This document shows positions 10,265 through 33,780 of a stretch of 42,413 nt of DNA, piece by piece. How positions within the stretch are numbered: the first letter of the stretch is position 1; every line of letters starts with the position of its first letter. The stretch is from Sulfurimonas sp. Lineage in GTDB: Bacteria > Campylobacterota > Campylobacteria > Campylobacterales > Sulfurimonadaceae. Where the stretch lies: contig JALWLL010000065.1 of NCBI GenBank assembly GCA_026996295.1, forward strand, positions 1-42,413, read 5' to 3'. The notes beneath the pieces were generated by a model. The model did no database searches. It was not told where the DNA came from and saw nothing but the letters and a program-made list of their open reading frames with translations. A program made the position numbers and the translations under genes.

Positions 10265-10345
10265 TCCTAAACTTCCATACGACCCCACTTTTTATAACAT
10301 TTTTAATTCTATTACGCTAGAATAACTTTAGCATGAGGAAGATTG

Positions 10346-12091
10346 ATGATAGAGTTAAAAGAGATTATACCTATAACAAACAAACTTTCACTTTTGTATA
10401 TTGATGAAGATTACAAAGTACTCTCTAGTGTTACCAAAGTTTTAAAGCAAGTTTTTTTAAGAGTAGATGATGCTGAAAATGCTACAGTCGGGCTCTCATA
10501 TGCCAAAATAAACAACTATGATCTGATTATTATAGACTCTGCTTCCAGTGTTATGAATGTCTATCAACTTCTCGATAATCTTCATCGTATCGATACATTT
10601 CAAAATATCATAGTTACGACAAAAGAGTTAAGCCAAAAAGATATCATAGATATATATAAACGCAATATCTCTTCTGTCATACAAAAGCCTTTTACCGCAT
10701 CGGAACTTTTGGATGAAATAGTCTCTATAGCTTCAAAGCTTTTACATGACAGGAACTATTTGGAGCCTGAACTTGAGAAGCTCAATCAGGATCTAATGTA
10801 TGAAAGAAAGCGTATAGGTCGCTTTATGGTCAATGAAAAAAAACTCAATGATAAAATCAAACTTTTTACACAAAATATACAAATAAACAGAAATATTCAT
10901 GAACTTACAAAACTACCAAGTAAATACGCTCTCAACAGTGCCATAGGCGATAATGTTCAATCTCTTATCTATATCAATATAGATCATTTTGATTTTATCA
11001 ACAATATTTACGGCATGGCCAAGGCAAACAAACTTCTTATTGAGTGTGCTAAAAGACTCGGTCTTTTTTTGCCAAAGAATGCTGAAGTGTTTCATATAAC
11101 GGCTGATGAATTTGTTATACTTTTGGATGATCCGGCAAAAGATCAGGATATACTTCTGGCAAGGCAGATACAGGCACTCTTCAAAGAAGCTCCCTTGGAG
11201 TTTGATACCTATTCTCACAGTGTAGTTTTCTCAATAGGTATAGACAGAGGAAAAGGCAAGCAGCTTTTTGTAAATGCAAAATATGCTTCCAAAGAGTCTA
11301 GATATTTTGGTGGAAACCAAATCACTATATACTCACCGATGTCCGAATATATGAAAGAGCAAAAAGAGAGTCTTTACTGGATTGAAATATTAAGAAAAGC
11401 TTTTGATGATGATAAAATTTTTACCTATTATCAACCCATTATCAACAATAGCGACTCCGGCATAAAGCACTATGAAGTGTTGTGCAGACTTATGGATGAT
11501 AACAACAAACTCGTTGATGCCAGTAAGTTTATCCACAGCGCGAGACTGGTTGGTTTGATAACACAAATAACAAGAACGGTCATAGATAAGTCTTTTAAGG
11601 TTTTTCAAGACAATGAGTATAATTTTTCACTCAATATAAGTATGCATGATCTGCATGAGTCCTATTTGGAAGCCTTTTTAGTATATAAATGTGAGAAGTA
11701 CAATATTGACCCAAACAGAGTATATTTGGAGATAGTTGAAGATATTATTTTCTCAAAATCACTTGAAATAGATGAACAGATAGGCTCCTTAAAAGAGAAA
11801 GGCTTTCATGTTGTCATAGATGATTTTGGTTCAGATAAATCTACTTACAACCGTATGTTTGACCTTGAAGCTGAGTTTATTAAAATAGATGGAAGTTTTA
11901 TTCGGGGGATTGCAAAAAATGAGGTCAATAAGATTATCGTTCAAAGTATTGTTGATTTTGCAAAAAAAAGCGGGATGAAAACCATTGCTGAGCATGTGGA
12001 AAATCCGCAAGACTATGATACGATTAAAGAGTTGGGGATAGAGTATTCACAAGGGTTCTTTTTGGGTAAACCCTCTTTAAAGCTTAAATAA
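10346..12091 (+). CDS. Receiver-GGDEF-EAL protein, likely c-di-GMP phosphodiesterase
   Basis: Three-domain signalling protein. The receiver domain (about 12-125) has acidic D20/E21, probable phosphoacceptor D64 (LIIIDS) and K114 (QKPF). A coiled linker leads to a GGDEF-fold domain (about 180-320) whose signature is TADEF, so cyclase activity is unlikely. The EAL domain (about 335-580) keeps most catalytic positions: EVL for EAL, LNIS, LEIVED, DDFG, KIDGSF, AEHVE and SQGFFLGKP. Loss of phosphodiesterase activity is therefore not expected. The ATG at 10346 is chosen over the TTG one codon earlier because GAGGAA (10335-10340) is well placed for it. No partner histidine kinase is adjacent. Its stop abuts that of convergent lolA. 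Confidence 0.88.
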   Translation: MIELKEIIPITNKLSLLYIDEDYKVLSSVTKVLKQVFLRVDDAENATVGLSYAKINNYDLIIIDSASSVMNVYQLLDNLHRIDTFQNIIVTTKELSQKDIIDIYKRNISSVIQKPFTASELLDEIVSIASKLLHDRNYLEPELEKLNQDLMYERKRIGRFMVNEKKLNDKIKLFTQNIQINRNIHELTKLPSKYALNSAIGDNVQSLIYINIDHFDFINNIYGMAKANKLLIECAKRLGLFLPKNAEVFHITADEFVILLDDPAKDQDILLARQIQALFKEAPLEFDTYSHSVVFSIGIDRGKGKQLFVNAKYASKESRYFGGNQITIYSPMSEYMKEQKESLYWIEILRKAFDDDKIFTYYQPIINNSDSGIKHYEVLCRLMDDNNKLVDASKFIHSARLVGLITQITRTVIDKSFKVFQDNEYNFSLNISMHDLHESYLEAFLVYKCEKYNIDPNRVYLEIVEDIIFSKSLEIDEQIGSLKEKGFHVVIDDFGSDKSTYNRMFDLEAEFIKIDGSFIRGIAKNEVNKIIVQSIVDFAKKSGMKTIAEHVENPQDYDTIKELGIEYSQGFFLGKPSLKLK

Positions 12092-30870: not shown

Positions 30871-31488
30871 TTATATTTTTATACTTTCCCAGAAGAAATC
30901 TACATGTTTTTCAAATTGAGTTGAGAGATTATTAGTAGATAATGAGTCAAATCGCAATAGTGTTACCTGTAGTCTGATGTAGAATAGGGTAGATAAAAAC
31001 TCATAGGAAATAATCATAGGATCGTTGGATCGAATAAGTGAGTTTTGCATCATAATAAAAAAACCTTCCGATAGAATAGCTATATTTTTATCATGAAAAT
31101 AACTTATAAACTGCTCTCTTAGCTCTTTATTTTGCAGTAACTCTATAAGAAGTATTCTGAACATACTTTCGTTGTTCTTATCAAATGTAAGAAGCTTATA
31201 TTGCATGGCAAAATTCTGTAAAAAAACCTTTCCTTTCAATGCATTTTCTCTAATATCATCACTGTTAAAAGAGAAGGGCGATGTAAAGATCTCACGTGCT
31301 ACTTCTAAAAAGATCTCCTCTTTATTTTTAAAATGATTATAAAGAGCACTCTCTCTAATACCAACTTGTGAAGCTATTTTTCTTACACTTGTGCCTTTGT
31401 AACCATGCTCAGAGAAGAGGGCTTTAGACTCTTTGAGTATTTTGGCTTTTGTGCCGACTCTTTTGTGTATCGTCGTATTTTCGGGCAT
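30871..31488 (-). CDS. TetR-family transcriptional repressor
   Basis: A 205-residue regulator with a canonical TetR N-terminus: KILKESKALFSEHGYKGTSVRKIASQVGIRESALYNHFKNKEEIF (outline; residues about 17-60), containing the helix-turn-helix. The remaining helices form an effector domain I cannot assign. It has AAAGG as RBS at 31500-31496 (minus). Unlike most TetR genes it has no adjacent efflux pump or enzyme; the divergent neighbour is rnpB. Four palindromic operators lie immediately upstream, two of them around its likely promoter, so autorepression is expected. Its other targets are unknown. Confidence 0.88.
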   Translation of the reverse strand: MPENTTIHKRVGTKAKILKESKALFSEHGYKGTSVRKIASQVGIRESALYNHFKNKEEIFLEVAREIFTSPFSFNSDDIRENALKGKVFLQNFAMQYKLLTFDKNNESMFRILLIELLQNKELREQFISYFHDKNIAILSEGFFIMMQNSLIRSNDPMIISYEFLSTLFYIRLQVTLLRFDSLSTNNLSTQFEKHVDFFWESIKI

Positions 31489-32083: not shown

Positions 32084-32860
32084 ATGAAACAAGCATATAT
32101 AATTGTAACTATCTTAGTGTTAACAACAATTCATTTAGGTGCGAGTGATTTTAGTTTTAGAAAGTATAATCACGTAAAAGAGTTCTATGCGTCTATAAGC
32201 AATGATACGCTAGAGATCGCTAAAAGATACAAGCTGCCGCCTGCAGCCATTTTAGCTATTGCAGGGCTTGAATCCGGTTATGGTTCAGGTTATGTATCTC
32301 AAATTACCGGCAATATACTTAGCTTGGGTGCTTTTAGAGGTGATTATGAACTGCCAAGGGTTTATTTGCCATACTCAAAATCAAAAAAGTGTGTACTCAT
32401 CTCTTCTAAAGAGTTTAAAAAGTGCTCAGAGAATGATCTTATTTGGAAAAAACGTCCAAAGAGTTTAAAGCGTGACTATCGCCCTCTTCCGTATGCAGGA
32501 ACTTCCAAGCACTTAGATCTGCTTCTATATGACCCTTTAGAGAAAAGCAAAGCACAAAAAGCATGCTTACAAGACTTTGCAACAAGATGGATAGTTAAAA
32601 GCTCCAAGGTACAGGCATTTAGAGATGCAAGAATTTGGCTTGATAAACTCATTTCTCAAGAAGGCATTAACATATTGTTTAATATGAATACTAATATAGA
32701 GTTTATTAAAAGAATTGGCGGTATCCCCCACTCTTTTAACTATAGACAAGAGTGGCCTAAAAAAGTAACTTTAATCATGAAAAAGGCCGGTTTGGTAGAA
32801 TTAACAAACGATATCTATTTTAACAATATGAGTTTTGATACAGCATGGAGAAATATATGA
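32084..32860 (+). CDS. Glucosaminidase-family peptidoglycan hydrolase, secreted
   Basis: Predicted periplasmic endo-N-acetylglucosaminidase (258 aa from this start). A signal peptide (MKQAYIIVTILVLTTIHLGA, cleavage near residue 20) leads into a domain with LPPAAILAIAGLESGYGSGYVSQITGNILSLGAF, where ESGYG holds the catalytic-glutamate position of the glucosaminidase/FlgJ fold. The frame is open back into rnpB, but those residues are clearly not coding. No RBS is visible before ATG 32084 or 32078; a TATAAT at 32072-32077 is so close that a leaderless mRNA is possible. It is coupled by ATGA to the small downstream gene. Family assigned by motif only. Confidence 0.72.
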   Translation: MKQAYIIVTILVLTTIHLGASDFSFRKYNHVKEFYASISNDTLEIAKRYKLPPAAILAIAGLESGYGSGYVSQITGNILSLGAFRGDYELPRVYLPYSKSKKCVLISSKEFKKCSENDLIWKKRPKSLKRDYRPLPYAGTSKHLDLLLYDPLEKSKAQKACLQDFATRWIVKSSKVQAFRDARIWLDKLISQEGINILFNMNTNIEFIKRIGGIPHSFNYRQEWPKKVTLIMKKAGLVELTNDIYFNNMSFDTAWRNI

Positions 32861-33063
32861 ATAGAAAAGATCGGCTTATAGAAGATATACAAAAACTACT
32901 CAACTCCTATGAGGGTGTCAAAGAAACAAAGATCAATCCAAATCTCTTGGCATTTATGGATGAAAAAACACTTATGAGTATTATAGACTCACTTTTAACT
33001 CAAAAAGAAAATGCAGTAGATTCCGATACGCAGTGGCTTGAAAAGTTTAAAAAGCACAAGTAA
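32857..33063 (+). CDS. Small helical protein coupled to the glucosaminidase
   Basis: A 68-residue soluble, charged, mostly helical protein (MNRKDRLIEDIQKLLNSYEGVKETKINPNLLAFMD...) ending in a basic tail. No recognised domain, signal or Cys. The ATG at 32857 overlaps the upstream TGA (ATGA) and has GGAG at 32847-32850, so it is preferred over the ATG at 32845. The ATGA overlap argues for translational coupling and joint regulation. Function unknown. Confidence 0.6.
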   Translation: MNRKDRLIEDIQKLLNSYEGVKETKINPNLLAFMDEKTLMSIIDSLLTQKENAVDSDTQWLEKFKKHK

Positions 33064-33128: not shown

Positions 33129-33150
33129 AGCCCCAAAACAAGGGGCTTTC
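33129..33150 (+). terminator. Weak hairpin terminator
   Basis: AGCCCC (33129-33134) and GGGGCT (33142-33147) form a 6-bp GC-rich stem with a 7-nt loop, followed by only TTTC. It lies between the small gene at 32857 and the response regulator. A perfect AT-only palindrome (33088-33103) precedes it. Confidence 0.4.
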
Positions 33151-33195
33151 AAGCAATGTTGTTTTGTGTTATTATGTTTGTTGCCAAAATATTTG

Positions 33196-33201
33196 TATAA
33201 T
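33196..33201 (+). promoter_or_regulatory. -10 box of the response-regulator gene
   Basis: TATAAT in TTTGTATAATTACAG, 33 bp before the ATG at 33235. Because it lies downstream of an open ATG at 33166, it rules that longer start out. AGGA at 33222-33225 is the RBS. Confidence 0.6.
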
Positions 33202-33234: not shown

Positions 33235-33780
33235 ATGGCAAATATAGATTTAGTTCAGCTCACTGGACAAACAAAAAGACTTACTTCGATGATTGTTGAA
33301 GATGAAAAAGTAACAAACGAGCTTTTGAGTTCAACGTTTAAGAACTTTTTTTCTGATGTGCATTCTTACTTTAATGCAGAAGAAGCACTTGAAGCATACA
33401 ATAAAATTCAACCGGATGTTGTTTTTGTTGATATAGTTATGGCTGGAATGGATGGTATTGAGCTTTCTCGTAAGATTCGTGAGATCAATCCAAATCAAAT
33501 CATTATAGTTATTTCTGCTAGTAATGATATAGAAAAAATCTCTCAGTCTATTGAGGTTGGTGTTAATAGTTTTATCCAAAAACCTATTGATACGAAAAAA
33601 ATCATAGAACTTCTGACAAACCTTATCTCTATGATAACTAAAAAGAAAAAAATAGAAACAAAAACTTTCTCTATCTCTCTTCCTTTAGATCTTTACGAAG
33701 TTGTCAACGACAATGCTAAAGCTGAAAGTATTTCAAAAAATGCAGTGATCATCAGAGCACTACGCAATTTTTACGAATAG
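33235..33780 (+). CDS. Response regulator with C-terminal ribbon-helix-helix-like domain
   Basis: 181-residue two-domain protein. The receiver (about 14-132) is complete: E22/D23, phosphoacceptor D66 (VVFVDIVMAGMDG), S94 (VISAS) and K116 (QKPID). A Lys-rich linker (ITKKKKIETK) leads to residues 144-181, FSISLPLDLYEVVNDN...SISKNAVIIRALRNFY. This reads as one beta-strand and two helices, as in CopG/Arc ribbon-helix-helix DNA-binding proteins. RHH is not one of the common response-regulator outputs. No histidine kinase is next to it, so it is an orphan regulator. The RHH call is from pattern and could be a short dimerisation element instead. Confidence 0.78.
   Translation: MANIDLVQLTGQTKRLTSMIVEDEKVTNELLSSTFKNFFSDVHSYFNAEEALEAYNKIQPDVVFVDIVMAGMDGIELSRKIREINPNQIIIVISASNDIEKISQSIEVGVNSFIQKPIDTKKIIELLTNLISMITKKKKIETKTFSISLPLDLYEVVNDNAKAESISKNAVIIRALRNFYE

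Follow-up and report, generated by a model that had tools for sequence, protein, structure and literature searches.

A Sulfurimonas response regulator joining a CheY-type receiver to a CopG-type ribbon-helix-helix output: a probable phosphorylation-controlled transcription factor

The 42,413-nucleotide stretch of Sulfurimonas sp. DNA analyzed here (hereafter the window) encodes a response regulator whose output is uncommon. The gene occupies 33235..33780 of the plus strand, stop codon included, as an open frame that runs from an ATG start and specifies 181 amino acids, and it has full-length orthologues. The product is confirmed to consist of a receiver whose phosphorylation site is complete, a lysine-rich linker and a 38-residue ribbon-helix-helix (RHH) domain of the CopG type. 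We read it, with a probability of about 0.62, as a phosphorylation-controlled transcription factor in which a CheY-type receiver carries a C-terminal CopG-type RHH output; it is a response regulator and no new category of protein. No description of a receiver-RHH response regulator was found in the open-access literature searched, including excerpts of PMC5847659, PMC4558063 and PMC9696931, and the architecture may be listed elsewhere.

The receiver domain spans residues 18-130 (33286..33624, plus strand) and is defined by its Pfam match, its invariant active-site residues and its receiver fold. Response_reg (PF00072) matches residues 19-127 with an E-value of 6.4e-24 and 84.7 bits (cut-off 30.2); none of the 25 NCBIfam matches listed for the whole protein reaches its cut-off. 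The active-site residues E22, D23, E24, D66, S94, A95, S96, K116 and P117 are all present, with the codons of D66 and K116 at 33430-33432 and 33580-33582 of the plus strand. Because E22, D23, D66, S94, A95, K116 and P117 are invariant in an alignment of 28 orthologues, the receiver looks competent for phosphorylation, and the complete receiver with D66 and K116 claimed in the preliminary description is borne out. The lysine-rich linker (residues 131-143; 33625..33663, plus strand) prolongs the long last helix of the receiver, modelled at residues 120-139.

The remaining residues, 144-181 (33664..33777, plus strand), are assigned to the CopG-type RHH domain on the basis of Pfam RHH_1, PHROG families, a model with fold search, and pN/pS. 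A strand at about 144-149 is followed by helices at 151-164 and 168-180, and profile, fold and conservation all speak for the 38-residue CopG/Arc-type output proposed earlier. Compared with profiles, as had also been proposed, these residues narrowly exceed the RHH_1 cut-off of 20.5 bits when the 38-residue tail is scanned alone (21.0 bits, E 3.1e-4) and fall below it when the whole protein is scanned (16.7 bits, residues 145-181). All 14 orthologous tails scanned singly match RHH_1 at an E-value of 0.1 or better, the best being 6.1e-6; HicB and RHH_5 are also listed for these tails, with only 4 and 2 of the 14 members reaching them. In addition, PHROG families named Arc-like repressor match the RHH tail.

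Structure prediction points in the same direction. The full-length monomer model (pLDDT 73.5, pTM 0.65; the other four of five models averaged below 50) shows the receiver, the long last helix, an extended low-confidence stretch and the two C-terminal helices, with pLDDT below 50 at linker and strand residues 138-147. Compared with the PDB by VIA-align, it retrieves receivers alone, at Z of about 19-20, a result that bears on the receiver and not on the tail. Modelled on its own as 52 residues, the tail reaches a pLDDT of 85.5 with good confidence in both helices, and the ribbon strand is extended but unpaired in both monomer models. A PDB fold search with the tail-only model places CopG chains at ranks 1-6, several of them from DNA complexes, with AmrZ, Arc and toxin-antitoxin antitoxins among the entries below. 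The best match has a probability of 1.00 and an E-value of 0.034, no better than a chain of this length would be expected to give. A sequence search of the PDB with the tail returns nothing, and a search with the tail profile returns unrelated chains only, with no RHH relative among them. Conservation is complete or nearly complete in the T-F-S-I strand and in the S-K-N-A residues that open the second helix. T144, S146 and S148 are the predicted DNA-facing strand residues, with the register set by the Pfam match and the facing taken from CopG; these positions hold small hydroxyl residues and no arginine.

Receiver-RHH fusions were sought in genome collections within Campylobacterota and, beyond the phylum, by a limited exact-peptide scan and in plasmid records. 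The survey of the phylum suggested in the preliminary description found the fusion in 49 of 397 high-quality genomes, a count that may miss divergent fusions since limited candidates were scored per genome. Forty-four of these belong to the window's own family (26 in genus g1 and 18 elsewhere in family f1), four to f4 and one to f6. The family profile matches 50 of the 397 genomes; 49 matches are full-length or nearly so, each as a single copy, and the fiftieth (G079) covers the receiver part alone. Eight listed f1 genomes lack the regulator, including G428, which has a tail piece at a contig end. The RHH profile by itself, for which the candidates scored per genome were likewise limited, matches 51 of the 397 genomes: the 49 with the fusion, G428 through its fragment, and G108 through a weak 78-amino-acid frame; since it finds almost nothing else, this version of the RHH domain is tied to this receiver in the phylum. 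The collection scan and genome searches return mostly Sulfurimonas and near relatives; the scan yielded 77 loci, and the family counts omit L087 (42 residues at a contig end) and L088-L111 (unrelated receivers). Ten plasmid records gave matches, every one confined to the receiver and none covering 80% of the query.

Selection has acted most strongly on the output. When 99 orthologues are compared with the window gene, the median pN/pS falls from 0.247 (residues 1-17) and 0.226 (linker) to 0.137 in the receiver and 0.085 in the RHH part, which is therefore the most constrained portion of the gene and under strong selection. This low value, together with the 49 genomes among 397 that keep the fusion at full length, shows that the open reading frame is no product of chance. 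Within the receiver, residues 88-125 (alpha4-beta5-alpha5) have a mean majority identity of 0.968 among 69 sequences, the highest of the segments compared, which fits an interface used for pairing. In one orthologue (G004; loci L009 and L283) a stop codon interrupts the RHH domain and the promoter is shifted some 200 bp away from the translation start; this copy is perhaps a decaying gene or an assembly fault.

How might such a protein work? We infer that a cytosolic histidine kinase would phosphorylate D66, upon which the receiver pair would rearrange through its highly conserved alpha4-beta5-alpha5 side. The change would then pass through the long last helix and the lysine-rich linker and alter the binding of an RHH dimer to its operator. 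The preliminary description had suggested that pairing of the receivers directly assembles the DNA-binding unit. RHH domains generally dimerize unaided, and their dimers are usually stable alone. For this reason, the assembly of the RHH dimer by receiver pairing would be possible but is not favored, and the coupling more likely consists of cooperative binding being promoted, or an inhibition being released, than of an RHH dimer built from nothing.

The promoter of the regulator gene could bear on where such a protein binds. A conserved element, TTTGTTGCC-AAA with the -10 hexamer TATAAT (33196-33201) after it, occupies 33177..33201 of the plus strand and was followed by pattern search through 114 genomes. 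Five TGTT units 5' of the -10 box (33157..33182, plus strand) are candidate regulator-binding repeats, either HP1021-like boxes or the protein's own operator. Among 80 distinct orthologue upstream regions, TATAAT is present in 84%. Compared with 341 control upstreams from the same loci, the regulator upstreams are enriched in TGTTA (86% against 23.5%), in TTTGTTAC (30% against 0.9%) and in TGTT-N5/6-TGTT, that is, pairs 9-10 bp apart (44% against 1.8%), figures to be read with a G+C content of 29% in the controls and 22% in the regulator upstreams, and with orthologues that are not independent. In 58 clustered sequences, a TGTT spacing of 10 occurs 20 times against 0.7 in shuffles. Furthermore, the strict pattern TTTGTTRCCNAA-N4-9-TATAAT has 25 sites in 114 genus genomes and none when reversed; 20 of them lie at the regulator gene (the window's included), three at nadE and two elsewhere, an enrichment that is partly circular because the pattern was derived from regulator promoters.

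These figures (the paired repeats, their spacing and the 20 of 25 exact sites) would suit an own operator: tandem TGTT(A/G)C half-sites, spaced by about 10 bp, through which the protein would repress or activate the gene that encodes it. Such autoregulation is compatible with the phosphorylation-controlled reading, and we hold it to be possible if doubtful. The same element occurs elsewhere: TTTGTTAC followed by TATAAT stands in 11 of 33 nadE upstreams, none of which has the tandem TGTT spacing, and a related promoter pattern adds two further nadE sites. It also persists in genomes without the regulator, as TTTGTTAC at nadE in G020 and in a GGTTACC version at nadE in G246. A genome-wide search of the window's genome (G000) for TGTTNNNNNNTGTTRC shows no excess (14 sites against 15 in the control), and a regulon defined by the repeat pattern was rejected on that count. 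Moreover, the orphan regulator HP1021/Cj1509 has a box, given as TGTTWCW in the excerpts of PMC6052347 and PMC4285127, that is very close to the TGTT(A/G)C elements of the regulator promoters, and HP1021 is described there as conserved in Epsilonproteobacteria. TGTTWCW itself occurs in 21 of 80 regulator upstreams against 12 of 341 controls, and TGTTACC in 22 of 80 against 3 of 341; the window promoter carries TGTTGCC, no exact fit to TGTTWCW. Given their likeness to HP1021 boxes and their recurrence at nadE, even in genomes that lack the regulator, the TGTT(A/G)C repeats are poor evidence of autoregulation, and from their sequence they are more safely read as putative boxes for an HP1021-like regulator. 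The likeness to HP1021 concerns a possible controller of the gene, not the nature of the receiver-RHH protein. At five promoters of nadE, an NAD synthetase-like gene (L285, L289, L290, L291 and L297), TTTGTT(A/G)CCAAA lies shortly 5' of TATAAT, and these elements are possible HP1021-type boxes in Sulfurimonas.

Upstream of this promoter, a co-oriented 68-amino-acid open reading frame (32857..33063, plus strand) is a neighbor in most orthologous loci. Among 98 distinct orthologue loci that include 400 nt or more of upstream sequence, a sample dominated by one genus, 90 have it at a distance of 77-334 nt from the regulator, which makes it the most constant upstream neighbor; no copy turned up in the loci of f4 and f6 or in G345, G109 and L058. 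The window copy shares 51-67% identity with seven aligned relatives, and family searches returned no credible family for it. A terminator-like hairpin followed by T, read directly from the sequence at 33129..33149 of the plus strand, lies between this frame and the regulator promoter. With this hairpin and a separate promoter in between, the 68-amino-acid frame and the regulator probably do not share one transcript. Downstream of the regulator are tRNA-Glu and an open reading frame named from its sequence as glutamyl-tRNA synthetase-like. Farther off, positions 7681-30767 of the window carry genes for aconitase B, monomeric isocitrate dehydrogenase, a malate dehydrogenase-like protein, fumarase and a 2-oxoacid:ferredoxin oxidoreductase set, and a TetR-type gene (30871-31488) follows these genes of central carbon metabolism. 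One other receiver protein lies in the window, with a receiver-GGDEF-EAL architecture (10343-12091). GGDEF genes adjoin the regulator in two relatives (L144:7698-8450 in G402 and L147:8645-10591 in G374), and a c-di-GMP-binding RHH protein, CdbA, is known.

No kinase gene was found among the 20 window open reading frames scanned, and none adjoins the regulator. The earlier statement that there is no adjacent kinase thus holds for the window and fails for the family, in which G039, G058, G191, G245, G109 and G398 have a convergent neighboring kinase. When the neighborhoods of 14 orthologous loci were compared (L148, from a genome without the gene, was not counted), a convergent histidine kinase gene adjoined the regulator in five, those of G039, G191, G245, G109 and G398; G058, of family f4, has the same H-box at the corresponding position. 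Such a neighbor is present in three lineages. The adjacent kinases of G039, G191 and G245 (family f4) have FIST_N, FIST_C and HATPase domains, that of G109 has PAS and HATPase, and that of G398 is a 267-amino-acid protein with HATPase. Regulator and kinase genes share an overlap of some 10 nt in G191 and G245, whereas the gap between them is 16 nt in G109 and G398 and about 105 nt in G039. FIST and PAS kinases are 44-45% identical over 255 kinase-core residues, and all regulator-adjacent kinases have in common the H-box NIAHQWRQPLNI[IL]AL. PLNIIAL is also present in the second FIST kinase of G039, which is encoded in tandem. Outside f4, this H-box was seen in none of the non-adjacent kinases compared, drawn from nine genomes and 30 of 43 matches. 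The cytosolic FIST-domain histidine kinases of f4 lie at L134:4067-8196, L135:8674-10719 and L136:1446-3497, convergent with the regulator and as a tandem pair in G039.

An exact DNA pattern, which misses variants, finds no kinase with the shared H-box in G000 or its 47 congeners. A DNA pattern wider than the H-box is met in 10 of these 48 genus genomes, in each case as a PLNI-[IM]-[GS]-L variant with no instance of PLNI[IL]AL, and is absent from G000. The failure to find the shared H-box in any of the 48 suggests that the window's genus has lost that kinase partner. FIST-domain histidine kinases are convergent neighbors of the receiver-RHH gene in f4 and are not adjacent to it in the window's genus. 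Of the 49 genomes that have the regulator, 39 have a FIST match, as do 119 of the 348 that lack it; within f1 the figures are 34 of 44 and 4 of 8 (p 0.19). A FIST kinase as obligatory partner was rejected, since 10 of the 49 regulator genomes have no FIST match and the link within f1 is weak.

Alternatively, the RHH domain could be a constitutive dimer that is always on DNA; the receiver would then mediate protein contacts or, in the window's genus, have ceased to be phosphorylated, in the manner of HP1043 and other orphan regulators of the phylum. The failure to find the shared H-box kinase in the 48 genus genomes fits this option, and so does the general stability of RHH dimers. Phosphorylation-independent orphan regulators are also known in the phylum: the excerpt of PMC8345958 describes HP1043 as an orphan regulator with a degenerate receiver that acts independently of phosphorylation. 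Unlike that receiver as reported there, the present one keeps its active site fully, in the genus and beyond, and intact kinases adjoin the gene in three lineages. We consider a constitutive dimer unlikely and favor phosphorylation control; in relatives the kinase gene lies tail-to-tail with the regulator, and in the window's genus it seems to be gone. A bolder proposal, which we rate as rather improbable, sees in these proteins lineage-specific regulators in which receiver pairing would gate the RHH ribbon dimer. Their original partners would have been tail-to-tail soluble FIST or PAS kinases of one H-box type, from which the Sulfurimonas regulator would have been cut loose, with a new partner that may be the 68-amino-acid protein in the kinase's place; G398 has both this frame and the adjacent kinase. 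Very improbable is a protein-docking tail of similar shape in place of a DNA-binding RHH, which would suit the whole-protein RHH_1 score below the cut-off and the small hydroxyls without arginine at T144, S146 and S148 but is opposed by the RHH_1 matches of all 14 tails, by the CopG chains, several of them from DNA complexes, that head the fold search with AmrZ and Arc after them, and by the near-invariant T-F-S-I strand and S-K-N-A helix start.

An RHH ribbon needs two chains to bind DNA, so the receiver-RHH protein, with 181 residues and no extra domains, offers a small system for studying how the pairing of receivers is converted into binding to DNA. Natural contrasts are at hand between lineages in which a FIST or PAS kinase adjoins the gene and those that keep the regulator without such a kinase.

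Among known systems, regulators of the OmpR, NarL, NtrC and LytTR types likewise combine a receiver with a C-terminal DNA-binding output and are expected to be under phosphate control; their outputs are winged-helix, helix-turn-helix, Fis-type or LytTR domains, whereas that of the window regulator is an RHH. The RHH_1 repressors CopG (1ea4), AmrZ (3qoq) and Arc (1par) share the strand-helix-helix arrangement of about 40 residues with the window tail, but CopG/Arc-type repressors stand alone, while the RHH of the window protein is the C-terminal output of a phospho-receiver. The only RHH-receiver protein met in the literature searched is the Arc-type RHH-HisKA-REC of Lokiarchaeum, as given in the excerpt of PMC5847659. 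It unites an RHH and a receiver in one protein, as the window regulator does; the Lokiarchaeum proteins differ in that they carry a kinase domain, have the RHH named first and come from archaeal or contaminant contigs.
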